Positions 19,150-36,073 of a DNA stretch of 36,117 nt are shown here, piece by piece. The DNA lies in the IMG/VR virus record IMGVR_UViG_3300024264_002467, positions 1-36,117 of that record, one strand, 5' to 3'. Position numbers and translations under genes: made by a program. The notes beneath the pieces are model-generated. The model had not been told where the DNA came from and ran no database searches. It saw only the letters and a list, made by a program, of their open reading frames with translations. This stretch comes from a virus. The number at the start of each line of letters is the position of its first letter. Within the stretch, counting starts at the first letter, position 1.

Positions 19150-22100
19150 AACAATTTAAAGTTTTAGACTATGACATTATATATTTGTCATACGATGAAC
19201 CTAATGCAGAAGAAAATTATGCAAATTTACTTACTAAAGTTCCGTGGGCAAAACGTGTACACGGAGTAGAAGGTTCAGATGCCGCACACAAGGCTTGTGC
19301 TAAGATTGCAGAAACAGATAGGTTTATTACTATTGACGGCGACAATCAAATAGATGAACAATTTTTAAATCAAACAATTAACTTTCAAGATGGTGTAGAT
19401 TTAAGTAGGCATGTTGTAAGTTGGACTGCTGATAATATTATAAATGGACTACGTTACGGTAATGGTGGAATCAAATGTTGGGATAGAGAAACTGTCCTAA
19501 AGATGAAAACACATGAAAACGCCGAACCTGGAAACGTTGCGGCAGGCATTGACTTTTGCTGGGACTTAGAATACATACAGATTAATAGTTTAATGAGTAC
19601 AGTGCATAATAATGCAACACCACATCAAGCATGGAGAGCAGGGTTTCGTGAAGGTGTTAAAATGTGTTTGATGGAAGGAATCAAACCTGCTAAAACTGAA
19701 CTAATAGGTAATCATTGGAAAAATTTAGAAAGATTATATGTATGGTGTATGGCAGGTGCAGATGTTCCTAATGGATTATGGGCAATATATGGTGCAAGGG
19801 AAGGCTTGTACAAAACAATGTGTACAGATTGGGATTATGTTAATGTACGTGATTTTGAATACTTAAATGGTCTTTGGAAAGATAAGGTACAAGACGAAAG
19901 TGATTTACTAGAAGCAATTGAAGATTACGGCAAACGACTACTAGAACAACTAGATATTCCTATTGCTATAACGCCCTTAGACGCTCAACAGAGCAAGTTC
20001 TTTAAAAGTACATACCGCAATCCACCTAGACCAGAACATCCTTATATACGTACATCTACAACACAATTTAATAGTTTTTCAGGACAGTTGAATATAACGC
20101 CTAAAACAGAATATGATATTGTAATGATATCTTATGATGAAATAAATGCAGATGACAACTTTAATAAACTTACAACACGTTTTCCAAGAGCACAGCGTAT
20201 ACATGGAGTTAAAGGAATACATCAAGCACACATTGCCGCGGCAAATATTTGTTCAACAGAAATGTTTTGGATAGTAGATGGAGATGCTATTATCGATGAT
20301 GACTTTAACTTTGATTATATAGCAGAAGATACTCGTGCAGTGCATGTATGGCGCAGTCAAAATCCTATTAATGATTTAGTATACGGATATGGTGGAGTAA
20401 AACTATTTCCTACACAGATGACACGAGATATGGATACAAGTCGTCCTGATATGACTACAAGTATAAGCGACAGATTTAAAAAGATGGAAAAGATATCCTG
20501 TGTTACAGGATTTAATTCAAATGAATTTAGTACATGGCGCAGTGCATTTAGAGAATGTGCTAAACTAAGTTCTAAAGTTATTGACAGACAAAAAGAGGAT
20601 GAAACAAATGAAAGATTACGAATTTGGACAACAATGGGAAAAGACCGTCCCTTCGGCGAATACGCTATTAAAGGTGCTTGTGCTGGCAGGGAGTATGGGC
20701 TTTCTGATGGCGCTGATCTTCGGTTAATAAATGACTTCAATTGGTTGTATGAACAGTTTGTAGAAAATACAGACACTACAGAAGAATGGCAAGAACTATA
20801 TAATAAAGACGATAAAGTTCAAACAACAACGCCAACTGAAATAGAACAACCTCAAGAAATTAAAAGTACAGTTCCTATTCAAGAAGATAGTCCATTGCCA
20901 CCAAGAGATCCATTTATTGTAGATTTATTAGATAGATTTGAAATATTATATGGTGATAAAATATCTAATCTTAGACGTTTTTATAATGACGGTCATATGT
21001 TAGATATACTTCGTATGATTGGAAACGATGATTTACGTACTTTTATTGAAGAAAGAAATTATCACGGATTATTTAGATACTTAGAAGACAAGGGTATCGA
21101 AGATATTGACGACATCAGAAAGATGTTTATTGAAAAAAATGTACATAGTTTGTTTAGACTTCTTGGAGACGATTATGAAGATTTACGAAAAAGTGTTGTA
21201 GAAGAAAATTTACATAGTTTGTTTAGACTAGTAGATGAAAAGCATGATGATTTAAGAACTTTAATGTTAGAGAAAAATCTACACGGATTGTTTAGATTGT
21301 TAGGACCAAAATATGAAGATCTACGCAAAGCAGTAATAGAACAAAATCATCACAGTTTGTTTAGAGTGCTAGGTAATGAATATGATGATTTACGTAAAGT
21401 AGTTACAGAACAGAATGTACACAGTTTGTTTAGGTTATTAGGTGATGAATATGATGATTTACGTAAAGTAGTTACAGATAAAAACGTACATAGTTTATTT
21501 AGACTGATTGAACAAACTGACACTACAGAAGATTTACGCAAAGCACTAACTGAATCAAATGAAATGAGTTTGTTTAGATTAATCCAAGACAAAGATACTA
21601 TTGTTGAGGATATTAAAAAAGCAGGCTTTTACAAAAATATTTGGAGCATTAAACGTATTGAACCTAGTGTTGCTGATGAAATAAATCTAACAATGGATAA
21701 TAATAAACATTTCTTATGGCGTGTACTTGATAAGCATACAGGAAGTTTATTTGTAAAACCTTTAGAAATATTAGATAAGCATAATGTTGAATACGACAAA
21801 GATGTAATGAGTCGCGGACAAATAAAAAGTAAAAAGTGGTTAGTTGATGAACTTAGCAAATTAAACCTACCACTAGGCACAATATTTTTATGTGCAGGCT
21901 GGTATGCTAGTATTGTTCCGTTAATGCAAGAAGCAGAATTAGACTTTGAAAAAATTCGTAGTTTTGATATTGATCCTGATGTATGGAAAATTGCTGAAAT
22001 ATTTAATACTGAATTAGTTAGTAATGCATGGAAATTTAAAGCAAGTACACAAAACATAATGGATATAAATTACAATGAACATACATATGATACACTTAAA

Positions 22101-22379
22101 CCAGGAGGCGAAGTAACAACAGTCAATAGAGAAATTGCTAATACTATTGTTAACACAAGTTGTGAACATATTACAAACTTTAGTAAATGGTATGATCTAA
22201 TACCGAATGGTAAACTAGTTGTATTACAAAGTAATAATTATTATGAAATTGAAGAACATGTCAATTGTTCTAATAGTTTAGAACAGTTTAGTGCTAGTGC
22301 GCCAATGAAAGAAGTATTATACGAAGGCGAACTTGATCTAGGACAATACACGAGGTATATGAAAATTGGACGTAAGTAA
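19146..22379 (+). CDS. Multi-domain protein: two GT-A-like domains, 23-residue LFRL repeats, methyltransferase-like domain
   Basis: The start ATG 19146 is chosen for its ATGA overlap with the previous stop; an in-frame ATG at 19134 is the alternative. It is 1077 residues. Residues 1 to about 290 and about 315-560 are two diverged copies of one domain. Each has DYDIIYLSYDE/EYDIVMISYDE, RVHGVEG/RIHGVKG and a DGD motif (64-66 and 378-380) as expected of a GT-A-like fold. About 605-840 is an array of 23-residue helical repeats (DDLRK......HSLFRLLG). About 860-1077 resembles a class I SAM-dependent methyltransferase: GTIFLCAGWYASI at the cofactor loop, SFDIDPDVW after it, and a late IPNGKLVVLQSN strand. 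The cofactor loop is not a classic GxGxG, so activity is uncertain. Such a fusion is unusual for a phage. Confidence 0.7.
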   Translation: MKQFKVLDYDIIYLSYDEPNAEENYANLLTKVPWAKRVHGVEGSDAAHKACAKIAETDRFITIDGDNQIDEQFLNQTINFQDGVDLSRHVVSWTADNIINGLRYGNGGIKCWDRETVLKMKTHENAEPGNVAAGIDFCWDLEYIQINSLMSTVHNNATPHQAWRAGFREGVKMCLMEGIKPAKTELIGNHWKNLERLYVWCMAGADVPNGLWAIYGAREGLYKTMCTDWDYVNVRDFEYLNGLWKDKVQDESDLLEAIEDYGKRLLEQLDIPIAITPLDAQQSKFFKSTYRNPPRPEHPYIRTSTTQFNSFSGQLNITPKTEYDIVMISYDEINADDNFNKLTTRFPRAQRIHGVKGIHQAHIAAANICSTEMFWIVDGDAIIDDDFNFDYIAEDTRAVHVWRSQNPINDLVYGYGGVKLFPTQMTRDMDTSRPDMTTSISDRFKKMEKISCVTGFNSNEFSTWRSAFRECAKLSSKVIDRQKEDETNERLRIWTTMGKDRPFGEYAIKGACAGREYGLSDGADLRLINDFNWLYEQFVENTDTTEEWQELYNKDDKVQTTTPTEIEQPQEIKSTVPIQEDSPLPPRDPFIVDLLDRFEILYGDKISNLRRFYNDGHMLDILRMIGNDDLRTFIEERNYHGLFRYLEDKGIEDIDDIRKMFIEKNVHSLFRLLGDDYEDLRKSVVEENLHSLFRLVDEKHDDLRTLMLEKNLHGLFRLLGPKYEDLRKAVIEQNHHSLFRVLGNEYDDLRKVVTEQNVHSLFRLLGDEYDDLRKVVTDKNVHSLFRLIEQTDTTEDLRKALTESNEMSLFRLIQDKDTIVEDIKKAGFYKNIWSIKRIEPSVADEINLTMDNNKHFLWRVLDKHTGSLFVKPLEILDKHNVEYDKDVMSRGQIKSKKWLVDELSKLNLPLGTIFLCAGWYASIVPLMQEAELDFEKIRSFDIDPDVWKIAEIFNTELVSNAWKFKASTQNIMDINYNEHTYDTLKPGGEVTTVNREIANTIVNTSCEHITNFSKWYDLIPNGKLVVLQSNNYYEIEEHVNCSNSLEQFSASAPMKEVLYEGELDLGQYTRYMKIGRK
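20961..21663 (+). repeat. In-gene array of about ten 69-bp (23-residue) repeats
   Basis: Units follow the pattern [YIH]-[DE]-D-[LI]-R-K-x6-N-x-H-[SG]-L-F-R-[LV]-[LIV]-G-x2. Six consecutive units are exactly 23 residues; the first and the last few are diverged or a few residues longer. Two neighbouring units share 29 identical bases (21381-21409 and 21450-21478), exactly 69 bases apart, so this part duplicated recently. The repeats look amphipathic and helical, likely forming a solenoid or binding scaffold between the glycosyltransferase-like and methyltransferase-like domains. Confidence 0.85.
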
Positions 22380-22590
22380 ATTAACATTAAGGCAAATGCA
22401 AACTGAAAGTGCTAGAGCATTAAGCACTATGGAAGCGACCAACAACAACATTTATCAGTTTAATAAACAAGCACATCATAACAGTCAAAATTGGTACAAA
22501 GCCGTAATTGATTGGTATGTTGGACAATACGGTGATTTACCCAGCCGTGCCGGTCCCGGTAAAGATATAAAGTTAGTGTTAGATGTATAG
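22366..22590 (+). CDS. Small protein directly before the radical SAM run
   Basis: A 74-residue frame opens at TTG 22366, with GAGG 10 bases upstream; an ATG at 22396 (64 residues, poor spacing to AAGG) is the alternative start. It overlaps the end of the upstream gene by 14 bases and the first radical SAM gene by 8. It is rich in Asn, Gln and aromatic residues (NNNIYQFNKQAHHNSQNWYK) and ends SRAGPGKDIKLVLDV. It contains no Cys and no recognised domain. It may be a structural or accessory protein. Its size and position before radical SAM/SPASM-type genes also make it a candidate modification substrate, but there is no clear leader-core layout. Confidence 0.6.
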   Translation: MDVSKLTLRQMQTESARALSTMEATNNNIYQFNKQAHHNSQNWYKAVIDWYVGQYGDLPSRAGPGKDIKLVLDV

Positions 22591-23665
22591 ATACGAAGAT
22601 ATTAAAGAAGTACATTTAGAAGTTACACAACGGTGCCAAGCCGCATGTCCTATGTGTGATCGTAATATGAATGGAGGTGCAGATAATCCTCACATAACAA
22701 ATGCTGAACTAAGCGTAGCAGATACAAAACGTATGTTTAGTCCAGACTTTATTAAGCAATTAAATGTAATGTATATGTGTGGTAACTTAGGTGATCCTAT
22801 TGTTGCAAAAGATACACTAGAAATATTTGAATATTTTAGAGAACACAATCCTAACATGTGGTTAAGCATGAATACAAATGCAGGCGCAAAAGATATCTAC
22901 TGGTGGGCAAGACTTGCAGAAGTTATAGGACGTAGAGGCGCAGTAATTTTTAGTGTAGACGGACTACGAGATACTAATCATCTATATAGACAAAATGTAG
23001 TATGGGACAACGTAGAAAGAAACATGCAAGCATTTATCGAAGCAGGCGGTAGAGCCCGTTGGGACTTCTTAATTTTTGCACACAACGAACATCAAGTTGA
23101 AGAAGCAGAAGCACTTGCTAATCAATGGGGATGTGAAAAGTTTATTAAGAAAAAATCAGGTAGATTTATTACAAGTGATATTAAACCTAAAACATCTCAT
23201 CAAGCAGTAAATCGTAAAGGTGCAGAAACACAAACTTTAGCACAGCCCAAAGATCAAAAAAATAAAAATTTAGCATTGCTAAAACAAAAAGAGATTGAAA
23301 AGTCTTATGGTAGTATGAAACAGTACTTAGACAAATGTTCAATAAATTGCAAAGTTGCAAAGCAAGGAAGTATCTTTGTAACAGCAGAAGGACTTTTAAT
23401 GCCATGTTGTTGGACTGCTGGACGTATGTACAAATGGTGGCATGAAGATCCTCGTGTAGAACAAGTATGGGATCATATCGATAATGCTGGTGGAAAGCAA
23501 GGCATAAGTATTATTAACAACGATATAAAACACGTAGTTAACGGAAAATTAATAGACAGTATTACCACAAGTTGGCAAAAAGATAGTATTGCTGATGGCA
23601 AACTTGGTGTTTGCGCTCAGAAGTGTGGTAGTGAGTTTGATCCTTATGCGGAGCAGTTTAAGTAG
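22583..23665 (+). CDS. Radical SAM protein, type A (SPASM/twitch-like C-terminus)
   Basis: In this 360-residue protein the radical SAM motif C18-x3-C22-x2-C25 (CQAACPMC) lies in the first strand region and would bind the 4Fe-4S cluster that cleaves SAM. Instead of GGEP there is CGNLGDP (residues 66-72). Next come FSVDGLRDTNHLYRQN and the WDFLIFAHNEHQ strand seen in the three other type-A proteins. A basic linker (about 200-245) leads to a C-terminal Cys domain: C.INC near 251, PCCW near 275, and CAQKC near 345, probably ligating an auxiliary Fe-S cluster. It overlaps the 74-residue gene upstream by 8 bases. The substrate is unknown. Confidence 0.85.
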   Translation: MYRYEDIKEVHLEVTQRCQAACPMCDRNMNGGADNPHITNAELSVADTKRMFSPDFIKQLNVMYMCGNLGDPIVAKDTLEIFEYFREHNPNMWLSMNTNAGAKDIYWWARLAEVIGRRGAVIFSVDGLRDTNHLYRQNVVWDNVERNMQAFIEAGGRARWDFLIFAHNEHQVEEAEALANQWGCEKFIKKKSGRFITSDIKPKTSHQAVNRKGAETQTLAQPKDQKNKNLALLKQKEIEKSYGSMKQYLDKCSINCKVAKQGSIFVTAEGLLMPCCWTAGRMYKWWHEDPRVEQVWDHIDNAGGKQGISIINNDIKHVVNGKLIDSITTSWQKDSIADGKLGVCAQKCGSEFDPYAEQFK

Positions 23666-24763
23666 ATGGATATTACCCAGTTAAAAAAAGTAGAATTAGA
23701 AATTACAAGCGATTGTAATGCGGCTTGTCCAGGATGTCAAAGAACGTCATTAAACAATCTCGGCAAACTTAAAGTCCAAGACTTTAGTCTTGCTGATCTA
23801 AAAAGAATTTTTCCGCCTAATAATTATCAAGGAATAGAATTTAAATTTTGTGGAGTATTAGGAGATCCTGCAATACATCCCGAGTTTGCTGAAATGCTAG
23901 AATATCTATTATTGTGTGGAGGCACTTGTAGTATTAGTACTAATGGTGCAGTTGGCACAGCAGACATGTGGCGTAAAATAGGACAACTTTGTCACGATCA
24001 CGAAAAGCGGTTTCATTTACATTGGTGTATAGACGGGCATGAACAAACTAATCATATTTACAGAGTAAACACAAAATGGAAAGTGTTAGAAAGAAATATG
24101 AATGCTTTTGTAGAAACTGTAGGAGAATATGTATATCGAGCAAAGTGGGTGTTTATTGTTTTTGACCATAATGAATACGAAATAGAGACAGCCAGAGAAC
24201 ACGCTGAACGTTTAGGATTTAGTTTTGCCACACGTACTGGAATGCGTAATAGTTTTCAAAAATGGATAGCAGAATTACCACAGAAAGTAGTTGTCAACAA
24301 TAAGAAAAAAGTTGTTAAAGTAGAAAAAGTTATTACTACTACAGGAACAAAAGAACACAGCAAAGTAGAACAAGTAAAAAAATTAGATGATTTTATTGCA
24401 AAAGAAAATAAAACACACAAAGAAACAGTAGAAGTATTACAAACAATACAATGCAAATATATACATGAAGGAGAAATATTTATTGCGGCAGATCAAACTA
24501 TGTGGCCTTGTTGTTTCTTGTCAGATTCGTCGACGAATAATAAAGAAAAAATTAATGACAAGATGCATGAATATGGTGATGGCTGGAATAGTTTACAAGA
24601 TAAATCAATAAACGAAGTTATGCAACATCCATGGTTTGATAAAATTCTAACAGATAGTTGGGATCCTAATCATTCAAAACATTTACCTAGATGCATTAGA
24701 ACATGTGCATATAACAAAGCATATCACAATGAAATTAATCATAATGACAAAGTTACAGCATGA
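23666..24763 (+). CDS. Radical SAM protein, type A
   Basis: This 365-residue protein starts right after the previous stop (TAGATG). The 4Fe-4S motif is C17-x3-C21-x2-C24 (CNAACPGC). The GGEP position reads FCGVLGDP. The type-A signature WCIDGHEQTNHIYRVN and WVFIVFDHNEYE follows. A long Lys/Thr-rich linker (about 205-255, with NNKKKVVKVEKV) separates the core from a C-terminal domain with PCCF near 280 and CIRTCAYN near 343, likely an auxiliary cluster site. The paralogous relation to the preceding gene and to the genes at 25866 and 26816 is clear from shared motifs in the same order. Target unknown. Confidence 0.85.
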   Translation: MDITQLKKVELEITSDCNAACPGCQRTSLNNLGKLKVQDFSLADLKRIFPPNNYQGIEFKFCGVLGDPAIHPEFAEMLEYLLLCGGTCSISTNGAVGTADMWRKIGQLCHDHEKRFHLHWCIDGHEQTNHIYRVNTKWKVLERNMNAFVETVGEYVYRAKWVFIVFDHNEYEIETAREHAERLGFSFATRTGMRNSFQKWIAELPQKVVVNNKKKVVKVEKVITTTGTKEHSKVEQVKKLDDFIAKENKTHKETVEVLQTIQCKYIHEGEIFIAADQTMWPCCFLSDSSTNNKEKINDKMHEYGDGWNSLQDKSINEVMQHPWFDKILTDSWDPNHSKHLPRCIRTCAYNKAYHNEINHNDKVTA

Positions 24764-25866
24764 CAGAATATAATTGTTTAGAATCTATTAACGCAATTTA
24801 TGTAAGGCGCGAGGAAGAAGGATACGCAGTTAAACCTTGTTGTGTTTATAACCAACCCTATCAAGATGATCATCATGTTCAGGATCCAAACGAATTATTT
24901 GATAATCCCTATATCAATAAAATTAGAGAAGGCTTCAAAGGCGATTGGGCAAAAAATAATCCTGGCTGTGCCGCATGTGTTATGAAAGAAAAAAGCGGAA
25001 AACCTAGTAAGCGTTTAGGAAGTTTAAAACGTGGACCTAATTTGAATGTCAATAATATTCCTACTAGATGGGACTTACGTCCAGGCAATACTTGTAATTT
25101 AAAATGCATAATGTGTAATCTAAGAAATAGTAGTAAATGGATTGAAGATAATGATATTGCAAATAAATTTAACGGTAGCCATGGTATTGATACAGAAAAA
25201 TCTTTTAGAAAGGACATGGATTGGAATTGGGTGTACAATAAATGTAAAGGAATGGCAGAGATTATCTATATAGCAGGCGGCGAACCGTTTTACATGAAAA
25301 ATGTACGTAACTTTTTAAAAAAACTATCTGAAATAAAATGGAACTGTGATAATACAACTATTCAAATACAAACAAATGGAGTTACTAATAGTCCTGCACT
25401 TTTAGAAATACTTTCTAAATTCAGCAGAGTAGAGTATAGTTTAAGTATTGACGGTTGGGCTGAAGTAAATGAACTTATAAGATTTCCTACTATTCACCAA
25501 GAATGGATTGACGGATATAATAGTATCAAATCTTTAGATCCAATCAATCTGATTTGCAATCTTACAATACAGTCTTTAAACTTGCCTAATATACAAACAA
25601 CACTAAAAGAACTGCATAACTTAGATAAAGATTTAAAATTTGATATGCATTTGTTAGAATATCCTAATTACTTGTCAATAAATGCATTAAAGCCGCAAGT
25701 AATTGAAGAAGTAAAACAAAACAATAACAATAAGTTAATTGCAAAGTTTATAGACTCATACAATTATGATAGAGGATTAAATGTTAAGATGCAAAAATTT
25801 CTACAAGAAATGGATACAAGGAGAGGCACGAACAGCAAAGTAGTTGCTCCGTGGTGTTACGTATAA
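24760..25866 (+). CDS. Radical SAM protein, type B (N-terminal twitch-like domain)
   Basis: This 368-residue protein overlaps the upstream stop by ATGA. Its architecture is reversed relative to type A. A Cys domain comes first (KPCCVYNQPY with C27-C28; NPYINKIREGF; GCAACVMKE; SKR), followed by the radical SAM core with C112-x3-C116-x2-C119 (CNLKCIMC) and an intact GGEP (IAGGEPFY, about 171-178). A TNG motif and SLSIDGWAEVNELIRFP follow, as in SPASM/twitch radical SAM enzymes. The N-terminal PCC plus CxxC would hold an auxiliary cluster. It sits between two type-A genes, so the two types may act together. Substrate unknown. Confidence 0.85.
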   Translation: MTEYNCLESINAIYVRREEEGYAVKPCCVYNQPYQDDHHVQDPNELFDNPYINKIREGFKGDWAKNNPGCAACVMKEKSGKPSKRLGSLKRGPNLNVNNIPTRWDLRPGNTCNLKCIMCNLRNSSKWIEDNDIANKFNGSHGIDTEKSFRKDMDWNWVYNKCKGMAEIIYIAGGEPFYMKNVRNFLKKLSEIKWNCDNTTIQIQTNGVTNSPALLEILSKFSRVEYSLSIDGWAEVNELIRFPTIHQEWIDGYNSIKSLDPINLICNLTIQSLNLPNIQTTLKELHNLDKDLKFDMHLLEYPNYLSINALKPQVIEEVKQNNNNKLIAKFIDSYNYDRGLNVKMQKFLQEMDTRRGTNSKVVAPWCYV

Positions 25867-26819
25867 TGTGGTCAAGTGAAACTTTAGAATGGATTGATAT
25901 AGAACTTACAAGTTTTTGCAATATTAAATGCAAAGGCTGTTTCCGTGTGCTTTCTGATTACAAAGATGATATACTTAATAAAACTTATCTTGATTTAGAT
26001 ACTATTAAAGAAAAGTTTCAAAAGGAAATGTTTCCTAACATGAAAATAATTAACTTTTGCGGAAGTGTAGACGAACCTTGTAGTCATCCGCAGTTTCACG
26101 AAATAATAGAACACTTTGCACAGTGGGGGTGCCATATCAATGTTGCTACGAACGGTAGTTTACGTACAACAAGTTGGTGGGAAAAACTAGCAAAAATTAT
26201 GCCGCCTAGTCATAGAGTAACTTGGGGTATTGATGGTAGTGATGAATTATCAGAAGTATATAGAGAAGGCAGTAGTTTTAAAAAAGTACAGCAAAATTTT
26301 AAAGCGTTTATAGCCGCAGGCGGTCAAAGTGTTTGGCAGTTTATTAGTTTTGAACACAACGAACATCAATTAGAAATAGCAAAGCAAATGGCTAAAGATG
26401 AAGGCTTTAAAGATTTCAAAACTATTATAAGTCATAGAAAAGATACTAAAGAAGTAAAACATAAAAGAGCAAAAGCAGATACTAATCCTGGAGAGCGTCC
26501 GTGTATTAGTTGTAAGTATGCAAATCAAAAACGTATATTTGTAAATCATATGGGCAATGTTATTCCATGCTGTCACTTAAACAGTAAAATGTTAGAGTTT
26601 CCTATAAGTGGTAAACACAAAGATAGATTTGAAGATATACTTGTTGAGAACGATTATATGAATGATATCAATTTGAAAAATGTTACACTTGACCAAGCAA
26701 TGAATAGTAAAGTATGGAATGGTATTAAAGACAGTTGGACTGATGATGTACGTATACCTAAATGCGAAAGCACTTGTGCAGAAAAAATTCGTGACAAATT
26801 TATAAAGGAACAATTATGA
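25866..26819 (+). CDS. Radical SAM protein, type A
   Basis: The start is ATG 25866, the A of the previous stop (TAATG), giving 317 residues; an upstream GTG at 25851 would add five residues. The motif is C18-x3-C22-x2-C25 (CNIKCKGC). FCGSVDEP replaces GGEP. WGIDGSDELSEVYREG and WQFISFEHNEHQ match the other type-A proteins. A basic linker (SHRKDTKEVKHKRAKA) is followed by CISCKYAN, an IPCCHLN site and CESTCAEK at the end, giving enough Cys for an auxiliary cluster. It is the shortest of the type-A set. It overlaps the next gene through ATGA. Confidence 0.83.
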   Translation: MWSSETLEWIDIELTSFCNIKCKGCFRVLSDYKDDILNKTYLDLDTIKEKFQKEMFPNMKIINFCGSVDEPCSHPQFHEIIEHFAQWGCHINVATNGSLRTTSWWEKLAKIMPPSHRVTWGIDGSDELSEVYREGSSFKKVQQNFKAFIAAGGQSVWQFISFEHNEHQLEIAKQMAKDEGFKDFKTIISHRKDTKEVKHKRAKADTNPGERPCISCKYANQKRIFVNHMGNVIPCCHLNSKMLEFPISGKHKDRFEDILVENDYMNDINLKNVTLDQAMNSKVWNGIKDSWTDDVRIPKCESTCAEKIRDKFIKEQL

Positions 26820-27868
26820 GTTGGCCTATAAAACCTAATAAAGTAAGAAAAGTACAAATGGAAATTACAAATTATTGTAATGCAAGATGTTCTGCTTGTG
26901 CAAGAGAGAAAATTGTTTTAGGAAAATTAGAACCTAATATACTAGGCATAAATGACAACTATATAACATATGAACAATTTGTTAGTTGGTTTACGAAAGA
27001 TGATTGGTCAGAATTAAGACTGCTTGACTTCTGTGGTAACATAGACGAACCTACAACTAATCCTGATTTAGAAAAAATTGTAAAGTGGATACTAACATAT
27101 GAAGGATTTGATCCTAGGTTACAAATTAATATTGCTACTAATGGCGGAACACGTAATAAAGCATTTTGGCAAAATATGGGAGAACTATCTGCTCGGTATA
27201 CTTCTCCTATAACTAGACAAGATGGCACTAATAGAAAACGCTTGCACATTATTTGGGGCATAGATGGTTTAGAAGATACAAATCATTTGTACAGGCGAAA
27301 TGTAAAGTGGGAAAAATTACAAGAAAATTTTAGGACATATATAAAAGCAGGTGGTCGAGCAACTTGGCAATTTATATATTTTGCATGGAATGAACACCAA
27401 GACGAAGAAGTTAAACAGCGCAGTATTGACGAAGGATTTGAAAAACTAAAATGGCGTAATACAAAACGCGGTGATAGAGGCGACACTAAACCTGCAAAAA
27501 AAGAACAATTTGTAAAAGATAATTATAAACCAAAAGGAAAAATTGTTTGTAAAGCATGTTTTAGGCCAAACTACTTTGGTTTAGAAACAGGGTTGTTTGT
27601 TACTAATAAAGGACACGTTATGCCCTGTTGCTGGCTAGGCACAGAAGCAAAAATGTATGAAGTATATAGAGACTATGGATACAAATACGATAAAAATGAT
27701 AATGTTCTAGATGGTAAAAAAAGTTTTGAAGATATTTTAAGTAGTGAATGGTATAGTAATATAATGAAAACTATTATGGCAGAAACTTGGGATGCCTGTG
27801 TATCACATTGCAAAGAAAACGCAGTAGAAGCAATCACTGACGACTGGAATATAAAACAAGATGATTAA
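26816..27868 (+). CDS. Radical SAM protein, type A
   Basis: In this 350-residue protein the motif is C21-x3-C25-x2-C28 (CNARCSAC). The GGEP position reads FCGNIDEP. WGIDGLEDTNHLYRRN and WQFIYFAWNEHQDEE carry the type-A signature. A Lys-rich linker (TKRGDRGDTKPAKKEQ) leads to VCKACFRPNYFG, MPCCWLGTE and CVSHCKEN, the C-terminal Cys set. It ends the first half of the radical SAM run; the 47-base gap to the next gene is the largest within the cluster and holds no recognised promoter or terminator. Substrate unknown. Confidence 0.83.
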   Translation: MSWPIKPNKVRKVQMEITNYCNARCSACAREKIVLGKLEPNILGINDNYITYEQFVSWFTKDDWSELRLLDFCGNIDEPTTNPDLEKIVKWILTYEGFDPRLQINIATNGGTRNKAFWQNMGELSARYTSPITRQDGTNRKRLHIIWGIDGLEDTNHLYRRNVKWEKLQENFRTYIKAGGRATWQFIYFAWNEHQDEEVKQRSIDEGFEKLKWRNTKRGDRGDTKPAKKEQFVKDNYKPKGKIVCKACFRPNYFGLETGLFVTNKGHVMPCCWLGTEAKMYEVYRDYGYKYDKNDNVLDGKKSFEDILSSEWYSNIMKTIMAETWDACVSHCKENAVEAITDDWNIKQDD

Positions 27869-27915: not shown

Positions 27916-29328
27916 ATGACAGATAAAACAAAATATCCATCAGACACTTTTTGCTTACTACCTTGGGTACATTTAAGTACAAGACCAGACGGCAGTATGC
28001 GAGTATGCTGTACTGCAAATGCTAGTAGTGTTGGACCTACTAACGATAAAGCCCACGGCGGCCAAGTAGGTATTCTCAAAGATGAGCAAGGGAGACCTAA
28101 TAATTTAAATGTAAGCGATTTTGAAACAGCATGGAATAGTACATATATGAAGAATGTACGCAAGCAAATGCTTGCAGGTGAAATGCCTCCTAGTTGTATT
28201 AAATGCTATAAAGAAGAAGCCGCAGGCCATAATTCAAAGCGTATGTGGGAAACAGCATATTGGGCTCAGCGTGTTGATGTAGATAAAATTATCGCAGATA
28301 CAAAAGAAGACGGTTCAGTACCTCCACAATTAGCATATATTGATTTACGTTTTGGAACCAAATGCCAACTTGCTTGTGTTATGTGTTCACCGCACGATTC
28401 ATCAGGATGGATCAAAGATTATAAAAAGATTTTTCCAGATGTACAAGACGCAAGTCTAAAAGAAACAATGCAATGGAAAGACAAAGGCAGTTACAACGGT
28501 AGTAGTTATAATTGGCACAAACAAAATCCTACATTCTGGAAACAGTTTTACGAACAAATGCCAAGTATGCAACAAATCTATTTTGCTGGCGGCGAAAGTC
28601 TTATTATTGAAGAACACTACGAAATACTTGAACATGCAATCAAAATGGGTTACGCAAAAGATTTAGAATTACGTTATAATTCAAACGGAGTTGAATGGCG
28701 TGAGGATTTATTTGACCTATGGAAAGAATTTAAATTAGTACGTTTCCATTATTCAATTGACAGTATAAAAGAAATGAATGATTATATTCGATATCCTAGT
28801 AATTGGAAACGCCAAGAAGAAGTCTTTCATATACTTGATAACGAAACTCCAAATAATACAGAAGTTACAGTAGCCTGTGCAGTACAAGCATTGAATATAT
28901 ATTATTTGCCAGATTTTATTAAATGGAAACTTACACAAGGGTTTAAGAAAATTAATATGTGGCCATTTGGCGCAGGTGCTATTAATTATCATTTTGTATA
29001 CCATCCACCACATCTTAATGTTAAAATATTACCTGCTTGGTTTAAAGCAGAGTGTCGTAAAAAATACGAAAAGTTTTATCCTTGGTGGGAAGAAAATTGG
29101 GAACTAGGAGTACCTAGTTGGCATAAAGGCAAAGTAGATTACGATAAATGGCGTAATGCTAGTTATGGTATTAGTAGATTAGAAGGTATGCTTAAATTTA
29201 TGGAAAGCGAAGACTGGAGCCAACGGTTACCCGAAATGAAAGAGTTTTTAAATTTGTGTGACAAACAACGTGGTATCAGTTTTGCAGAAACATTTCCAGA
29301 AATGAGAGATATCTTTAATGACATCTAA
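27916..29328 (+). CDS. Radical SAM protein, type B (N-terminal twitch-like domain)
   Basis: This 470-residue protein has the N-terminal Cys domain CLLPWVHLSTRPDGSMRVCC (C13, C31, C32), AWNSTYMKNVRKQMLAGEMPPSC and CIKCYKEE. The radical SAM motif is C150-x3-C154-x2-C157 (CQLACVMC). The GGEP position is GGES (FAGGESLI). LRYNSNG and FHYSIDSIKEMNDYIRYPSNW follow the family pattern. A C-terminal helical extension of about 100 residues (WWEENWELGVPSWHKG) makes it longer than the other unfused members. The start ATG 27916 has no close ribosome-binding site (AAGG is about 23 bases upstream). Genes of this architecture are known in marine phages and bacteria, but to my knowledge without assigned function. 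Confidence 0.85.
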   Translation: MTDKTKYPSDTFCLLPWVHLSTRPDGSMRVCCTANASSVGPTNDKAHGGQVGILKDEQGRPNNLNVSDFETAWNSTYMKNVRKQMLAGEMPPSCIKCYKEEAAGHNSKRMWETAYWAQRVDVDKIIADTKEDGSVPPQLAYIDLRFGTKCQLACVMCSPHDSSGWIKDYKKIFPDVQDASLKETMQWKDKGSYNGSSYNWHKQNPTFWKQFYEQMPSMQQIYFAGGESLIIEEHYEILEHAIKMGYAKDLELRYNSNGVEWREDLFDLWKEFKLVRFHYSIDSIKEMNDYIRYPSNWKRQEEVFHILDNETPNNTEVTVACAVQALNIYYLPDFIKWKLTQGFKKINMWPFGAGAINYHFVYHPPHLNVKILPAWFKAECRKKYEKFYPWWEENWELGVPSWHKGKVDYDKWRNASYGISRLEGMLKFMESEDWSQRLPEMKEFLNLCDKQRGISFAETFPEMRDIFNDI

Positions 29329-30502
29329 AACACTTTGTCCTCTTCCATTTATGCATCAATATATAAACGTAACTAGCGGAGTGACTCCCTGTTGCCATGT
29401 ATTTAATACTAAAGATTGGCCTGAACAACAGTTAGACTTTACAAAAGGTATTTACACTAGTTCTCATAAACTAATGCGTAAAAAAATGCTTGGAGGTATC
29501 TGGCCTAATATATGTTCTAAGTGTAAGTTGCAAGAACAAAATAATCAAAAGAGTCATAGACAAATGGCACTTGAAAGATTTGGGTTCCCAAAAACAAAAG
29601 GAATAAAATATCTTGATATTGCATTTAGTAACAAATGTAATTTAGCATGTAGGATGTGTAAGCCATCAGATAGTAGTTTGCTTACTGAACTATATGAAGG
29701 TGAAACACACTTACCTGAATGGGTTGATGCAGAATGGCCACCTGCTTCAGAACAACAGCCTGATAAAAAAGTTACATATGTGAAAAAACTTATAACTGAA
29801 GGATTAGAATTACTAAAAGTAACTGGTGGAGAACCGTTTGCATGTAAGTATTTTATGAGTGTAATTGAATGGGCTATTGAAAAAGATTATGCAAAAAATT
29901 TAGAAATAAATCTTACGACTAACGCTACAAAGATTAATAAAACATTAATTAATAAATTACTTAAATTTAAAAAAGTTAAACTATTACTAAGCATTGACGG
30001 AACCGGCACAGTATACAACTACATTAGACATCATGCATCATGGGATAAGGTGTATAATAATTTAAAGCAATTATCAAAATATTCAAACATTGATCTACAG
30101 GTAGCATGTTTGGTTATGTTTCATAATACTACTAATGTTATAGATTTAATATACAAATGTGCAGAACTTAACATATCAGTATACGTCGATCAATATATAA
30201 AACCAGTAACAACTCCGATAACTCCCTATCACATAGATGAAAATATTAAAAGTATTTTGTTAAAACAAGTATCAAAATTAGAAGAGGATACGGAACACTG
30301 GAAAGATAGTTTAGTCAAATACCATGCATTATCTGGTGCTAAGTCGCTATATAATATTGCTATGTCTGCCCCAATAAATATTAGCATTAGAAGGAAACTA
30401 GTAGATACAATAGCATTACAAGATAAATTGTACAACACTAATTACAAAGACTTCCTACAGTCTGAACAAATTAACTATTTAGAAGGAACAAACAATGTCT
30501 AA
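29318..30502 (+). CDS. Radical SAM protein, type B
   Basis: This 394-residue protein overlaps the upstream gene by 11 bases and the downstream gene by 8. The N-terminal twitch-like domain has CPLPF (C7), TPCCH (C25-C26) and ICSKCKLQEQ. The radical SAM motif is C107-x3-C111-x2-C114 (CNLACRMC) with GGEP intact (VTGGEPF). LTTNATK and LLLSIDGTGTVYNYIRHHASW follow. The C-terminal tail is helical and Lys-rich without further Cys clusters. The order of motifs matches the type-B genes at 24760, 27916, 30495 and 34976. Its product is unknown. Confidence 0.85.
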   Translation: MTSKTLCPLPFMHQYINVTSGVTPCCHVFNTKDWPEQQLDFTKGIYTSSHKLMRKKMLGGIWPNICSKCKLQEQNNQKSHRQMALERFGFPKTKGIKYLDIAFSNKCNLACRMCKPSDSSLLTELYEGETHLPEWVDAEWPPASEQQPDKKVTYVKKLITEGLELLKVTGGEPFACKYFMSVIEWAIEKDYAKNLEINLTTNATKINKTLINKLLKFKKVKLLLSIDGTGTVYNYIRHHASWDKVYNNLKQLSKYSNIDLQVACLVMFHNTTNVIDLIYKCAELNISVYVDQYIKPVTTPITPYHIDENIKSILLKQVSKLEEDTEHWKDSLVKYHALSGAKSLYNIAMSAPINISIRRKLVDTIALQDKLYNTNYKDFLQSEQINYLEGTNNV

Positions 30503-32978
30503 ACTTCCTTGTTTTTATGCTCACGGCGCACTTAATTTTAAAAATGGATTTGCTACAACTTGTCCTATTAGTTCAGCACATCTACAGGAATTAAATGAAG
30601 GTAAAGATTTACCAAGCGAATTTTGGAACAACGATAAGTTCAAAGAATATAGAAAACAATTAGATCGAGGAGAATGGCCTGAACATTGTCATCTCTGTCA
30701 AACTGCTGAAAAAGAAGGAACAAAAAGTATGCGCCAAGATTACGAAGCAGACTTAACACATTATGATCCTGAAACAGGAACTGTAGATTTTAAAGGTTTA
30801 AAACATGTAGAAATGCGGTTTAGTAACAGTTGTAATATGGCATGCTTACATTGTAGTGAAGTATACAGTAGCCAATGGGGTAGTAGACTAAAAGATTATG
30901 TTCCAGACCAAAAAGACTGGGATTATAATCTAGAGCAAATTTTAAAGACTCAACATAGAGAAGGTCCAGAAGATAATAAACAAATTAGATTGTCTAAAGC
31001 AGACGCACTAACTATTGCTGACGATTTAATTAAAAACTTTCCTAATATAGAAAAAATTGATTTTGCTGGCGGTGAAGTATTATTTCAAAAGCAATTCTTC
31101 CCAGTACTTGAGCGTTTAGCACAACATCCAAATGCTAAAAATATATATATTTTCTTTCATAGTAATTTTAATGCACCTTTTAATGTGGTAAGGTTAAATG
31201 AATTATTACAGCCTTTTGGTCAAACAAAAATTAAAATAAGTATAGATGCTGGAACAAACATTTACAGTTATTTTAGAGACGGCGATTGGGACGTACTAAA
31301 AGATAATCTTGCTAAGTTTAAATCAATGAACAAAAATACATATTTAGATGCAGTATGTACAACAAGCATTTATCAAATACTTGATATTAAAAACATATTG
31401 CTATCATTGTGCAGTCTTGATGTAAACGAAATATCTATGAGTACAGTAATGACTCCAAGATATATAAATCCTTCAATAGCATACAGAATGTTTGGTAAGG
31501 CAATATTACATGATTTTATGGAAGTAGTAGAAGAACTAAAACAACTTAAAACAAAAAGAATACAGGAAGGAAACCTGCAAAAGTATCGTTCTTATAATCC
31601 TACACAACATGAATTTGATGATATCCGCGGCGCATTACGAGATTTAGAAACAATTAAAACATATATTTTGAATCATGAAAGTGTAGAATATGATATTGAA
31701 TCATTTGTTGCTTATGCAAATAAGATTGATAAATTGTGGAACAAAGACTTTAACAAACATTTTCCACGATATAAGTTAACAGATAAAAAATTAATTCGAA
31801 ATTCTAATGTAGATTATGATCTAGAATATCCATATAGTAAAATAGATACTAAAGTAGAAATAGAAAAAGGAATAAAAAAATTAAGTGAGAATGTTGAACG
31901 AATCAGACCGTATTACGAAAAATTAATAAGTTTTGCAATGCCGGAAGATGTTGTACAATTAGATAGTGATGTTGTTAAAGAATTGTCTGAAGAAATTTCT
32001 CAAGCAATAAAGCAAGTGAGATCAGAGTTGAGTTCAGATGCAAAGAAAGAAATTGACGAAGAATTAAATTGGCTTGACAGATTAAAAACTAGAGATGATT
32101 ATACAACACATAAAAGATATGACTCATACATTAAACAATCAAGAATTGCTGTAGCAGATATTGAAGAATTATTTGAAAAGAGTATGAGACAGCGCGAATC
32201 TATAATGAAATTAATTATAACTTCGTCAGGATTTAAACAATTTACAGTAGATGGTTTAAATATTCCTTTTAATCCAGACTGGGAAAAAATTGCTGTAAAC
32301 GTAAGTGGCGGCGCAGATAGTTGTTTATTAACTTCTTTACTTTGTAGACATATAGAAGCCAATAATTTAAAATGTAAAATTGATGTAATTACTCATCAAC
32401 GTGTATGGACTGTAAGACCTTGGGCAGGACCTATTAGTTTAGATGTTTACAATGCACTTAAGGAAAAATGGCCTAACATAATTAACAAAAGACTAACAAA
32501 TTACATACCTCCAGAACTAGAACATAGCACACTTGGTAATCTTGTAGGAGACCGCAGTGGTGATCAAATTATAGTACAAAGTTTTAATGAGTTTCAAGCG
32601 GCTGAAAATGATTATAATTGTATTTTTAATGCTACAACAAAAAATCCTAGCATGGAAACCCCTACAGAAGATAGAATGCGTAATAGAGATTTTGTAGCAG
32701 TTGGACTAAAAGAGTATCTATTTTTAGGAACTAATTTTTGGCAAAGCATGCCGTTTATTGCTACAGAAAAAGATTGGGTAATAAAACAATATAAAGATTT
32801 AGAATTAATGGATTTATACAACAAGACTCGCAGTTGTGAAGGTGATGGTCGATTCGGTGGTAGTCTTATAGGAAAAGACTATTGGTGGTACAAATATAAC
32901 GATGTAGAAGTTGAAACATGTGGAAAATGTTTTTGGTGTGTAGAAAGAAAATGGGCGGAAGATAAAAATGAGTTTTGA
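30495..32978 (+). CDS. Fusion of a type-B radical SAM protein and a QueC-like PP-loop ATPase
   Basis: This 827-residue protein has an N-terminal twitch-like domain (PCFYAHG, a lone C at the usual CC site, CHLCQTAEK) and a radical SAM motif C113-x3-C117-x2-C120 (CNMACLHC) with GGEV at the GGEP site (FAGGEVLF). About 390-600 is a long helical, probably coiled-coil connector. From about 598 there is a PP-loop ATP pyrophosphatase domain with V603-SGGADS-C610. It ends in C781 and C809-x2-C812-x2-C815 (CGKCFWCVERKWA), the arrangement QueC enzymes use for zinc. QueC converts carboxy-deazaguanine to preQ0 using ATP and ammonia; QueC-like relatives do other ATP-driven amide or nitrile chemistry. Whether this one uses a deazapurine is unknown. 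Confidence 0.85.
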   Translation: MSKLPCFYAHGALNFKNGFATTCPISSAHLQELNEGKDLPSEFWNNDKFKEYRKQLDRGEWPEHCHLCQTAEKEGTKSMRQDYEADLTHYDPETGTVDFKGLKHVEMRFSNSCNMACLHCSEVYSSQWGSRLKDYVPDQKDWDYNLEQILKTQHREGPEDNKQIRLSKADALTIADDLIKNFPNIEKIDFAGGEVLFQKQFFPVLERLAQHPNAKNIYIFFHSNFNAPFNVVRLNELLQPFGQTKIKISIDAGTNIYSYFRDGDWDVLKDNLAKFKSMNKNTYLDAVCTTSIYQILDIKNILLSLCSLDVNEISMSTVMTPRYINPSIAYRMFGKAILHDFMEVVEELKQLKTKRIQEGNLQKYRSYNPTQHEFDDIRGALRDLETIKTYILNHESVEYDIESFVAYANKIDKLWNKDFNKHFPRYKLTDKKLIRNSNVDYDLEYPYSKIDTKVEIEKGIKKLSENVERIRPYYEKLISFAMPEDVVQLDSDVVKELSEEISQAIKQVRSELSSDAKKEIDEELNWLDRLKTRDDYTTHKRYDSYIKQSRIAVADIEELFEKSMRQRESIMKLIITSSGFKQFTVDGLNIPFNPDWEKIAVNVSGGADSCLLTSLLCRHIEANNLKCKIDVITHQRVWTVRPWAGPISLDVYNALKEKWPNIINKRLTNYIPPELEHSTLGNLVGDRSGDQIIVQSFNEFQAAENDYNCIFNATTKNPSMETPTEDRMRNRDFVAVGLKEYLFLGTNFWQSMPFIATEKDWVIKQYKDLELMDLYNKTRSCEGDGRFGGSLIGKDYWWYKYNDVEVETCGKCFWCVERKWAEDKNEF

Positions 32979-34245
32979 TACAGTAGATTTACTTACAGGA
33001 AATGTATTCCAAGTAACTTGGGATCTAGGACGTAGATGTAATTACGATTGTAGTTATTGCCCAGTAACACGCCATGACAATTTTAGTCCACATGCTACAC
33101 TAGACGAACTAAAAGCAAATACAGACTTTTTATACGAGTACATTGATACGTATATGCAACACCGTCAGTTTAAAAGAACCAGTATTGGGTTTACCGGCGG
33201 AGAACCTACAGTTAATCCAAACTTTATTCCCTTTATGCAATATTTAAAAAGTGAATACGAAACAAGGTACCAAAGTAGATGGAGTGCAAACTTTGCACTT
33301 ACAAGTAACGGCGCCATGGGACAAAAGATGGCACAAAAAGTAATGGAGAACTTTGCTCACATTACAGTAAGTTACCATGCTGAAAGTAATGAAAAACTAA
33401 AAAAGCAAGTACGTGATAGAATATTGCAATTTCATAAAGACGGTCCTGCAACTAAAACAACAATGAGCATAAATGTTATGTTTCATGCAGAACACTTTGA
33501 TGAATGTAAAGAGTTATGTGAATGGCTAGATGAACAAGGAATAAAGTATGTTCCGAGAGTCATTGGTGAAGAGCCTGATAGTAGAGAAAGTTTTGCCCAT
33601 GTGTACAATGATGAGCAACTTGACTACATGAAGAACTTCTGGAAGAACAAAAATGCAAAACTTAATAATGAAAAAGAGACTACTAGTAGGCTAAGTGCTG
33701 TAGGAAAGCCTAAACAGGAACAATTAAAACAACAACAAGTTGATGAAGAACTTAGAAATAAAAAAGACGGTAACACAGTAGAAGCAATCGAAGCAAAGAA
33801 TAAACAACGTGAAGAAGCAAAGAAAAAAGAATCAGCAAATCAAGGATACAAAGTTGGAAGACCATGTTGTGGTAGTAGGGAAATGTGTTTATCTAACAAA
33901 GGGCAAAGCCGTAATGCAACATTTGTAGATATGAGAGAATTCAAAGGTTGGCATTGTAGTGTAAATTGGTTCTTTTTGCATTTAGAACAACAAACAGATC
34001 AAGTGTTCCATCATCAAACATGTCAAGCACGTTTTGACGGTACTCGAGGACCAATAGGTAAAATTAGTGAAGGTAAAAAAATTGTTGCAGATTTAGTTAA
34101 AAAGTTAGAAACAAATTCAATGCCGACTATTGTTTGTCCTAAACATACTTGCGGTTGTGGATTATGTGCGCCTAAAAGTAAGTTTGAGAAAAACTATAAA
34201 GATGTAATGGAAAAACATCTTATAAGGCCGGAAATATTAGTATGA
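32968..34245 (+). CDS. Radical SAM protein, type C, with Cys-rich C-terminus
   Basis: In this 425-residue protein the motif C24-x3-C28-x2-C31 (CNYDCSYC) is near the N-terminus and GGEP is canonical (F75-TGGEPT). Its closest look is to general radical SAM activases or epimerase-like proteins rather than to its neighbours. A charged Lys/Gln/Glu insertion (about 225-295, low complexity, probably coiled) separates the core from a Cys-rich part: RPCCGSREMC, WHCSV, HQTC and CPKHTCGCGLC. The nine Cys there could hold one or two extra Fe-S clusters or zinc. It overlaps the fusion gene upstream by 11 bases and the SGNH-like gene by 4. Confidence 0.82.
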   Translation: MSFDTVDLLTGNVFQVTWDLGRRCNYDCSYCPVTRHDNFSPHATLDELKANTDFLYEYIDTYMQHRQFKRTSIGFTGGEPTVNPNFIPFMQYLKSEYETRYQSRWSANFALTSNGAMGQKMAQKVMENFAHITVSYHAESNEKLKKQVRDRILQFHKDGPATKTTMSINVMFHAEHFDECKELCEWLDEQGIKYVPRVIGEEPDSRESFAHVYNDEQLDYMKNFWKNKNAKLNNEKETTSRLSAVGKPKQEQLKQQQVDEELRNKKDGNTVEAIEAKNKQREEAKKKESANQGYKVGRPCCGSREMCLSNKGQSRNATFVDMREFKGWHCSVNWFFLHLEQQTDQVFHHQTCQARFDGTRGPIGKISEGKKIVADLVKKLETNSMPTIVCPKHTCGCGLCAPKSKFEKNYKDVMEKHLIRPEILV

Positions 34246-34982
34246 GAATAGGAATTTTTGGTGATAGTTTTGCCGACAGTAAAAATGGTGGCACACAATT
34301 TAATCAACAAGGATCATGGCCGCAACTATTAGCAAATACAAAAAAGATAAAAGTAGAAAACCATGCTCTTGTAGGTAGTGGATTAGAATACTCATTAATA
34401 AAGTTATTTGAGGCTGGAAGTAGATACGACAAACTAATTTTAACTGTTACTAGTCCTGAAAGATTATATATAAATCCAGATAATCATCACAAATTATTAG
34501 ATGATAATGAAGTATATCATCACATTAGACCGACAGATATTCGAAAGAGAAAAAAAGATATTTTTTTTAATAAAGCAAACGATGTAGCATTAGAACATTA
34601 TAATATATTTAATAACAATGATACTAATAATATTCGAACAGCATTATATATTAAAGCACTTCGTGATTGTTTTGGAGGAAAAATATTACTATTAACTTGT
34701 ACTAACCAGAGTACAAAGTATAATAAAGGTTTAAATGCATGGCCACATAACGAATTAAGTTTAATTGATATGTTTTATCATGAAAATAAAACATTATTTC
34801 CAGACGGTAAAATAGATTGGAAGAATGACCAACGTTCGTGTCATTTAACACATTGGCATCATAGAATGTTATACGGTAAAATATTAAAATGGATCGAAAC
34901 TGATAAATTCAAATTAACTAAAAAGGATCTTCTATCTCTAGACAAAGATGAAGTAATACAAGGATATTTTGGCAAATGGTAA
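34242..34982 (+). CDS. SGNH/GDSL-like hydrolase (putative)
   Basis: This 246-residue protein starts MRIGIFGDSFADS, a block I GDS motif with Ser9 as the expected nucleophile. NHALVGSGLEYS could supply the block II Gly. Near the C-terminus HLTHWHHRMLYGKIL gives the catalytic-His region; the usual Asp three residues before it is not in place (DQRSCHLTHWH), so the dyad or triad is uncertain. There is no signal peptide, so it would act in the cytoplasm. It is the only non-radical-SAM gene within the run of radical SAM genes, overlapping its neighbours by 4 and 7 bases. Possible roles are removal or transfer of acyl groups on the product made by the cluster. Confidence 0.68.
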   Translation: MRIGIFGDSFADSKNGGTQFNQQGSWPQLLANTKKIKVENHALVGSGLEYSLIKLFEAGSRYDKLILTVTSPERLYINPDNHHKLLDDNEVYHHIRPTDIRKRKKDIFFNKANDVALEHYNIFNNNDTNNIRTALYIKALRDCFGGKILLLTCTNQSTKYNKGLNAWPHNELSLIDMFYHENKTLFPDGKIDWKNDQRSCHLTHWHHRMLYGKILKWIETDKFKLTKKDLLSLDKDEVIQGYFGKW

Positions 34983-36073
34983 CCCCTAAGTACGCATGTC
35001 CATTACCTTTTAATCATATGGCTGTTAGACCCGACGGTAAAATATTACCATGTTGTGTTTTCAGATGGGACGATGTACCAGAAGATTTAAATATTGATTA
35101 CAAAGATCCTTTCAATCATCCTTTCATGAAAAATCTTAGAGATAAAATGTCTAAAGATGTGTATGTTGAAGGTTGTAAAGAATGTTATCAAAAAGAAGAG
35201 TTTGGTAATCAGAGTTTTAGAAAACTTGTACTAGACAAGCAAGAAGACTTTGGCGCAACTAGTTTAGTAGAAGGTACACCACCAGAACTTACATATATAG
35301 ATCTAAGCATTAGTAATACTTGTAATAATAAATGTAGAATGTGTAATCCTGGATTAAGCACAAGTTGGTATAGTGATGCAAAGAAGTTAGGTATAGAAAT
35401 TCCTAAAGGAATTATTAAAAATCCTTTTATTGAAAACACTGATTTTAGTAAATTGAAATTTATTAAATTGTTAGGCGGAGAACCGCTTATGGAACAAAAA
35501 GTTATCAAGAACATTCTAAAACAGTGTGACCTTTCGCAGTTACATATTCAACTTATTACTAATGGCACAGTAATACCTGACGATGAACTAAAAGGTATGC
35601 TAGAACAAGTTAAGCGATTAGAAGTAAAACTTAGTATAGATGCATATGGAAAACTAAATGACTTTTTACGCAGTGGCAGTAAATGGGAAACTGTTGAAAA
35701 AACTGTAGATTGGTTCAAACCATTTGTTAACAAGAAGTTTTTAAGTATTCACAGCGTAGCAAGTATATATAACATTAATAAGATAGACGAACTAGTTGAA
35801 TACGCAAAGTCAAAAGAAATATATCATGAATATGTACCGCTTGATGATGTTGATTACATGCAAACAAAACATTTACCTTTAGAGGCTAAAAAATTGTTAG
35901 TAGAACAAATAAGAAGTAAAAATTATAAATTTGGTACCAGTTTGATTTATGAATTAGAAAAACATGGAGATACTAATTTATTTTTAAAACAGGATGCTAT
36001 TATGAATGCATTGCGTAGTGAACATTGGAAAGATTGCAATCCTGAATTATTAGATTTATTGAAGATTGAATAA
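34976..36073 (+). CDS. Radical SAM protein, type B, last of the cluster
   Basis: This 365-residue protein has an N-terminal twitch-like domain: CPLPFNHMAVRPDGKILPCC (C8, C26, C27), FMKNLRDKM, GCKECYQKEEFG and SFRK. The radical SAM motif is C116-x3-C120-x2-C123 (CNNKCRMC), with GGEP intact (LLGGEPL). LITNG and VKLSIDAYGKLNDFLRSGSKW follow the type-B pattern. No C-terminal Cys domain is present. It overlaps the SGNH-like gene by 7 bases and closes the + strand run; the 44 bases after it hold no + strand gene and no clear terminator. Confidence 0.85.
   Translation: MVTPKYACPLPFNHMAVRPDGKILPCCVFRWDDVPEDLNIDYKDPFNHPFMKNLRDKMSKDVYVEGCKECYQKEEFGNQSFRKLVLDKQEDFGATSLVEGTPPELTYIDLSISNTCNNKCRMCNPGLSTSWYSDAKKLGIEIPKGIIKNPFIENTDFSKLKFIKLLGGEPLMEQKVIKNILKQCDLSQLHIQLITNGTVIPDDELKGMLEQVKRLEVKLSIDAYGKLNDFLRSGSKWETVEKTVDWFKPFVNKKFLSIHSVASIYNINKIDELVEYAKSKEIYHEYVPLDDVDYMQTKHLPLEAKKLLVEQIRSKNYKFGTSLIYELEKHGDTNLFLKQDAIMNALRSEHWKDCNPELLDLLKIE

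Follow-up and report, generated by a model that had tools for sequence, protein, structure and literature searches.

A radical SAM domain fused to a QueC-like PP-loop domain in a viral radical SAM gene array, and the coupled gene pair of related viruses

Results

The radical SAM array and its neighbours

The window, i.e. the whole stretch of DNA analysed here, is a linear record of 36,117 bases from an uncultured aquatic virus that infects bacteria. It carries a run of ten radical SAM genes, which like the other features located below lie on the plus strand, and this array is preceded by tail-protein and glycosyltransferase-like genes. Upstream of the array lies the gene for a 1081-aa protein (19,134–22,379) with two repeated N-terminal glycosyltransferase-like domains, HSLFRLL repeats and a methyltransferase-like C-terminus, domain names that were assigned in part by reading the sequence. 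A small protein of 74 aa with a TTG start (22,366–22,590) stands at the beginning of the array, its gene overlapping that of the first radical SAM protein by 8 nt. The array continues with the radical SAM types A (360 aa, 22,583–23,665), B (365 aa, 23,666–24,763), C (N_Twi, 368 aa, 24,760–25,866), D (322 aa, GTG start, 25,851–26,819; weak C-terminal SPASM match), E (350 aa, 26,816–27,868; weak SPASM match), F (N_Twi, 470 aa, 27,916–29,328; 423 bits) and G (N_Twi, 394 aa, 29,318–30,502), the gene of the latter overlapping that of the fusion protein (30,495–32,978) by 8 nt. The fusion gene in turn shares 11 nt with the gene of type I (425 aa, 32,968–34,245). A GDSL/SGNH hydrolase-like protein of 246 aa, scoring below the Pfam cut-off (34,242–34,982), and type J (365 aa, 34,976–36,073) complete the series.

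For comparison, loci were picked from IMG/VR by the radical SAM half of the fusion alone, thereby avoiding a choice by PP-loop gene. This search gave 219 relatives. The best 80 loci were retained and near-copies (95%) removed, leaving 53 loci; counts out of 53 in the following always refer to this selection from the best 80 of the 219 relatives. On average, the 53 loci contained 9.4 radical SAM genes, over at most about 21 kb, and the arrays additionally contain glycosyltransferase-like, nitroreductase, dioxygenase and hydrolase-like genes. The C-terminal part of the 1081-aa protein, for which no Pfam match was obtained, was kept in 46 of them. In one related virus (G014), genes for an A-type Fe-S carrier, the iron permease FTR1, a ferredoxin and a QueD-like protein stand one after another; a role in Fe-S supply would fit all of them but the last.

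The fusion protein

The open reading frame of the fusion begins with ATG, contains no internal stops and encodes 827 aa, in which three regions can be distinguished. The first, residues 1–430 (30,495–31,784), is an N_Twi radical SAM domain: residues 15–427 scored 210 bits with the NCBIfam model N_Twi_rSAM (NF033640), against a cut-off of 170. The fusion differs from this family in carrying a PP-loop domain, and its radical SAM half forms a subfamily of its own; in the parts of the literature available, we found no characterised function for the family as such. The radical SAM cysteines are C113, C117 and C120 of a CxxxCxxC motif, followed by GGE at 192–194, and C6, C23, C65 and C68 fit a predicted N-terminal auxiliary (twitch/SPASM) cluster. 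All seven cysteines were kept in 67 to 68 of the 68 unique radical SAM homologues. The second region, residues ~450–577 (31,842–32,225), is a helical connector, visible in the full-length model described below and poorly conserved between the two fused lineages. The third, residues 580–827 (32,232–32,975), is the PP-loop half with SGGADS at 604–609 and the cysteines C781 (in TRSC), C809, C812 and C815. Every one of the 69 unique PP-loop relatives has SGGADS; TRSCE occurs in 66, and of the three without it two break off at a contig end.

The original prediction, made from the letters alone, had placed a twitch-type radical SAM core, a long helical connector and a PP-loop domain in one polypeptide. 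This layout was borne out in each part, with the motif residues found where it had put them and retained among the relatives. What it had overlooked is the setting, an array of about ten radical SAM genes with a conserved small protein at its beginning. The same fusion was also recovered elsewhere, in loci from several metagenomes (L006, 96% identical to the window fusion, L007, L011/L012, L014 and L015). An assembly artefact of the window contig is ruled out by this recurrence.

Fold of the PP-loop half

Run against PDB sequences, both the full-length protein and PP-loop profiles yielded weak PP-loop matches only, so that a fold search was required. Likewise, the PP-loop half alone scored 16.1 bits with PF01171 and 12.8 bits with PF06508 (gathering score 22), both below the cut-off; stand-alone relatives in two loci (L007 and L047) exceed the gathering score of PF06508. 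An AlphaFold2 model of the PP-loop half, built from 24 virus sequences, reached a pLDDT of 87.8 and a pTM of 0.89, and its top PDB match was QueC from B. subtilis (3BL5; E 5.9e-6, probability 1.00, TM 0.50/0.63, 19% identity). The PP-loop fold anticipated for the C-terminal half is thus present. In the case of the full-length model (pLDDT 71.7), QueC again came first, and radical SAM structures such as viperin, SkfB and MoaA appeared lower in the list of matches. The radical SAM half is of low quality in this model, most of residues 1–164 having a pLDDT below 50, and we therefore make no claim on the domain interface. Overall, the PP-loop half is a divergent, probably zinc-binding PP-loop enzyme of the QueC fold. 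A chance match of motifs is ruled out by conservation and fold together.

Relation to queuosine synthesis

Canonical QueC (cluster 1 of PF06508) is characterised by the motifs YxQxHxxE, VPxRN and YPDC (PMC13329287), and Tyr and Asp of YPDC bind the deazaguanine base (CDG) both in QueC and in Cap9 (PMC13279940). The PP-loop half has in common with canonical QueC the PP-loop fold, SGGxDS and a conserved Lys, together with a putative C...CxxCxxC zinc set. However, each of the three motifs was found in 0 of the 69 PP-loop relatives, and at the position of YPDC the window protein reads RMRN in a profile alignment to E. coli QueC. The four C-terminal cysteines are conserved with a longer first spacing, 27 residues before CxxCxxC as compared to C(x)8CxxCxxC, and the PP-loop half further differs from canonical QueC by its score under the Pfam cut-off and by its fusion to, or coupling with, an N_Twi radical SAM enzyme.

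As to the genomic context, TGT was found in none of 16 related virus records and QueD-like genes in two (G003 and G014), whereby many of these records are fragments and such absence is not proof. Among the radical SAM genes no QueE was recognised, as judged without a QueE family model. A canonical queuosine enzyme was rejected on the absent motifs and on the TGT missing from these 16 records. A broader role in 7-deazaguanine chemistry, be it the synthesis of preQ0 as in QueC or the attachment of CDG to a protein or nucleic acid as in Cap9, could draw on the QueC fold, its two hallmark motifs and the QueD-like genes of the two records. We regard this as improbable, since none of the 69 relatives has the substrate motifs with their CDG-binding Tyr and Asp (PMC13279940), with the TGT, QueD and QueE results, limited as they are by fragmentary records, pointing the same way. 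The original prediction had compared the fusion with queuosine/archaeosine synthesis and suggested channelling between a radical step and ATP-dependent amide or nitrile chemistry. Of this, the idea that both halves act together was supported, as relatives encode the two parts as overlapping neighbours, and queuosine-type chemistry was not.

QueC-fold proteins are also known outside queuosine synthesis, i.e. QatC of qatABCD and Cap9 of type IV CBASS, in which the nucleoside role has been lost (QatC) or redirected (Cap9) and which work (Cap9) or are proposed to work (QatC) on partner proteins. Since the window family is a QueC-like family encoded by phages, it might, as the original prediction had suggested, counter such immunity, either as a decoy or by modifying the partner proteins. 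Members of the family do match QatC weakly: the best E values against the PADLOC QueC and QatC models were 4.5e-4 and 1.3e-3, and with the QatC models of PADLOC and NCBIfam the window member itself was unmatched, with the best family member at E 1.3e-3 and 4.6e-4, not above cut-off. The family differs from both systems in being phage-borne, paired with radical SAM enzymes and devoid of the CDG-binding Tyr/Asp pair of Cap9, and neither a CD-NTase nor a QatB partner, which would bear an N-terminal MGTS motif, was noticed among the genes examined, in the case of QatB without applying a model. A role in anti-defence is very improbable in our view, because the gene sits in a long biosynthetic array rather than an anti-defence locus, retains its full catalytic motifs and is in most copies coupled to a radical SAM enzyme.

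The coupled gene pair

The two halves are normally separate; what is usual is a pair of coupled genes, of which the fusion is a variant. In L008, for instance, both parts are separate genes with a 4-base overlap. Five of the 53 loci (from the best 80) carry the fusion, and in 36 the PP-loop gene overlaps or abuts the radical SAM gene, lying downstream in 33 cases and upstream in 3, with spacings of −85 to 0 bases. The PP-loop gene is found elsewhere in the locus in 7 of the 53, and in the remaining 5 none was found within the stretch examined. When mapped on a tree built from 35 radical SAM halves, the fused state requires two changes, either two separate fusions or a fusion plus a split. Starting from the other partner, 134 PP-loop genes were collected in 98 loci, near-copies included, and 82 of them were fused to, overlapping with or at most 60 bases from a radical SAM gene on the same strand.

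This coupling is specific to the radical SAM family of the fusion when compared to families A, B and J. A PP-loop gene was directly downstream of, or fused to, 40 of 56 genes of the fusion's family, as opposed to 1/57 for family A, 0/52 for B and 1/34 for J; the values for families F and G were 18/82 and 4/7. Family I directly follows a PP-loop gene in 25 of 57 cases, the same arrangement as in the window.

A conserved small protein

When the 53 loci were searched for small open reading frames, the small protein (65–96 aa, usually ~74 aa) turned up in 42 of them (from the best 80 of 219 relatives), mostly with its gene overlapping a radical SAM gene. Its approximate consensus reads LTLRxLQxESARALSTMEATNNNIxQFNKxAHHNSQNWYKAVIxWYVEQYGDLPSxVGPGKDxKLV. 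It has no Pfam family and gave no tblastn match in 50,697 cultured phage records. Differences between the copies fall mainly on the third codon position (661/302/1597), and the small protein is therefore a real protein. In a search using the small protein itself, 524 relatives were found, and radical SAM genes were present in 79 of the best 80 loci.

We regard the small protein as a candidate substrate of the array. RiPP systems with SPASM radical SAM enzymes (PqqE/PqqA etc.) likewise have a small conserved protein encoded directly before the twitch/SPASM genes; they differ from the present loci, where about nine radical SAM enzymes occur per locus, no known precursor family is present and modification of the small protein is putative. 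A typical peptide precursor has a variable core. Because the small protein is, unlike such precursors, conserved almost throughout, it may instead be an accessory or binding protein.

Distribution

Aquatic viruses commonly encode QueC-like relatives as stand-alone proteins (at least 554 matches). A GTDB genome scan with the PP-loop profile gave no relative, and one with the stand-alone relatives gave six loci only. In one bacterial locus, on a 710-kb contig of a Bdellovibrionia MAG (L047), a QueC-like gene passing the Pfam cut-off adjoins three radical SAM genes, one of them SPASM/radical SAM and one B12-type. Genes for a GTPase, an APS kinase and a protein of the PAPS-reductase fold lie next to these, and a sulfotransferase-like gene there was named by reading alone. 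In the 50,697 cultured phage records, tblastn found no match to the PP-loop half, and only Vibrio phage D479, at 23% identity, for the radical SAM half. Among cultured phages, those closest to the contigs studied here are other T4-like phages of large size.

Marine T4-like phages have already been reported to carry radical SAM genes in runs. One such genome has 12 radical SAM genes, which were read as Fe-S biology (PMC5332604), and host-recognition islands of pelagimyophages contain radical SAM cassettes together with glycosyltransferases (PMC7029224). Common to these cassettes and the window are many radical SAM genes beside tail-fibre and glycosyltransferase genes, whereas the PP-loop partner, the fusion and the 74-aa protein go unmentioned in the available parts of both sources. 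No description of the pair, the fusion or the small protein was found in the openly licensed papers searched.

Discussion

We favour, with a confidence that stays tentative, the explanation that the fusion enzyme carries out two steps in a modification pathway of phages, which comprises about nine radical SAM enzymes and travels with the ~74-aa protein. This explanation is supported by the retention of fold and residues in both halves, by the pairs that overlap or abut (36/53) or are fused (5/53; loci from the best 80 of 219 relatives), and by the specificity of the PP-loop coupling for this family (40/56) versus A, B and J. Further support comes from the small protein, with its presence in 42 of 53 loci and radical SAM genes in 79 of its own best 80, from the Fe-S carrier, FTR1 permease, ferredoxin and QueD-like protein of G014, and from QueC relatives that act on proteins: Cap9 has been shown to attach CDG to the N-terminus of a protein, and for QatC a modification of QatB has been proposed (PMC13279940).

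As to the mechanism that we infer, the radical SAM half would take hydrogen from a bound peptide or protein, for which the 74-aa protein is the best candidate, and would then introduce an oxidation or cross-link. The PP-loop half would bind ATP at SGGADS, convert a carboxylate to the adenylate and couple this to an amine or ammonia, so as to form an amide, by analogy with the reactions of Cap9 and QueC on their own substrates. Fusion of the halves would serve to hold the intermediate on the enzyme, i.e. to channel it.

Several observations weigh against this explanation. The co-occurrence may partly stem from shared phage ancestry, in 5 of the 53 loci (from the best 80) the stretch examined contains no PP-loop gene alongside the radical SAM gene, and the tailoring genes of the arrays equally fit the synthesis of a glycan or small molecule. 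A sugar or other small molecule as substrate is indeed the main rival, because of the glycosyltransferase-like and tailoring genes and of the cassettes in the pelagimyophage islands (PMC7029224). The pair would then act on a sugar, nucleotide-sugar or other small metabolite made by the array and thereby modify the host surface or the phage fibres, the radical SAM half oxidising or rearranging the metabolite and the PP-loop half amidating it in the manner of sugar amidotransferases. We hold this to be quite possible. Glycosyltransferase-like and hydrolase-like genes lie within and beside the array, in line with the pairing in those islands, and one family member weakly matches the N-acetyl sugar amidotransferase WbuX (E 0.015). 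On the other hand, the fold and the C-terminal Cys set are of the QueC type, with QueC as top structural match, and it is not obvious what the 74-aa protein would do in a sugar pathway.

Returning to the two-step enzyme, its fullest form would be that, in large aquatic phages, about nine radical SAM enzymes act on the 74-aa protein and a QueC-like ligase, fused or coupled to one of these enzymes, forms an amide on the same protein, yielding a phage-made modified protein or a peptide-derived cofactor. Taken with all these parts, it is a speculative proposal that we consider less likely than not.

Altogether, phages are seen here to pair a QueC-fold enzyme regularly with a radical SAM enzyme, in a setting other than queuosine synthesis, Qat or CBASS. 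The label queC on such phage genes, common in surveys of auxiliary genes, can be wrong. The radical SAM cassettes of marine phages gain a defined core, consisting of the small protein, the radical SAM families and the PP-loop partner, and the small protein gives a concrete handle on whether these cassettes modify a peptide.

Gene neighborhoods of the fusion and its relatives

In a single phage locus (L023, 4148-16649), four PP-loop genes are interspersed among 11 radical SAM ORFs. At another locus (L080, 7954-11347), two stand-alone QueC-like genes come after genes labeled, by reading the sequence alone, as GMP reductase-like and DNA adenine methylase-like, and a radical SAM gene is absent from this locus. 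In the Bdellovibrionia MAG locus (L047, 7575-17846, and L050), the QueC-like gene adjoins sulfate-activation-type genes. A sulfotransferase-like gene, so named only by reading its sequence, is also found nearby. The QueC-like gene of L047 additionally has three radical SAM genes beside it, one of them B12-type.

Upstream of the array in the window, a protein of 1081 aa (19134-22379) carries HSLFRLL-type tandem repeats, with a glycosyltransferase-like part on one side and a methyltransferase-like part on the other. Its C-terminal part was present in 46 of the 53 non-redundant virus loci. More of these repeats are discernible in its relative from L007, another locus carrying the fusion.

In the related virus record G014 (L036, 2741-4922), consecutive genes encode an A-type Fe-S carrier, an FTR1 iron permease, a ferredoxin and a QueD-like protein.

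Finally, amidinotransferase-like proteins were located within radical SAM arrays at L202 (2059-3051; weak match to PF02274) and L048 (5227-6288), which hints at guanidino or amidino chemistry.
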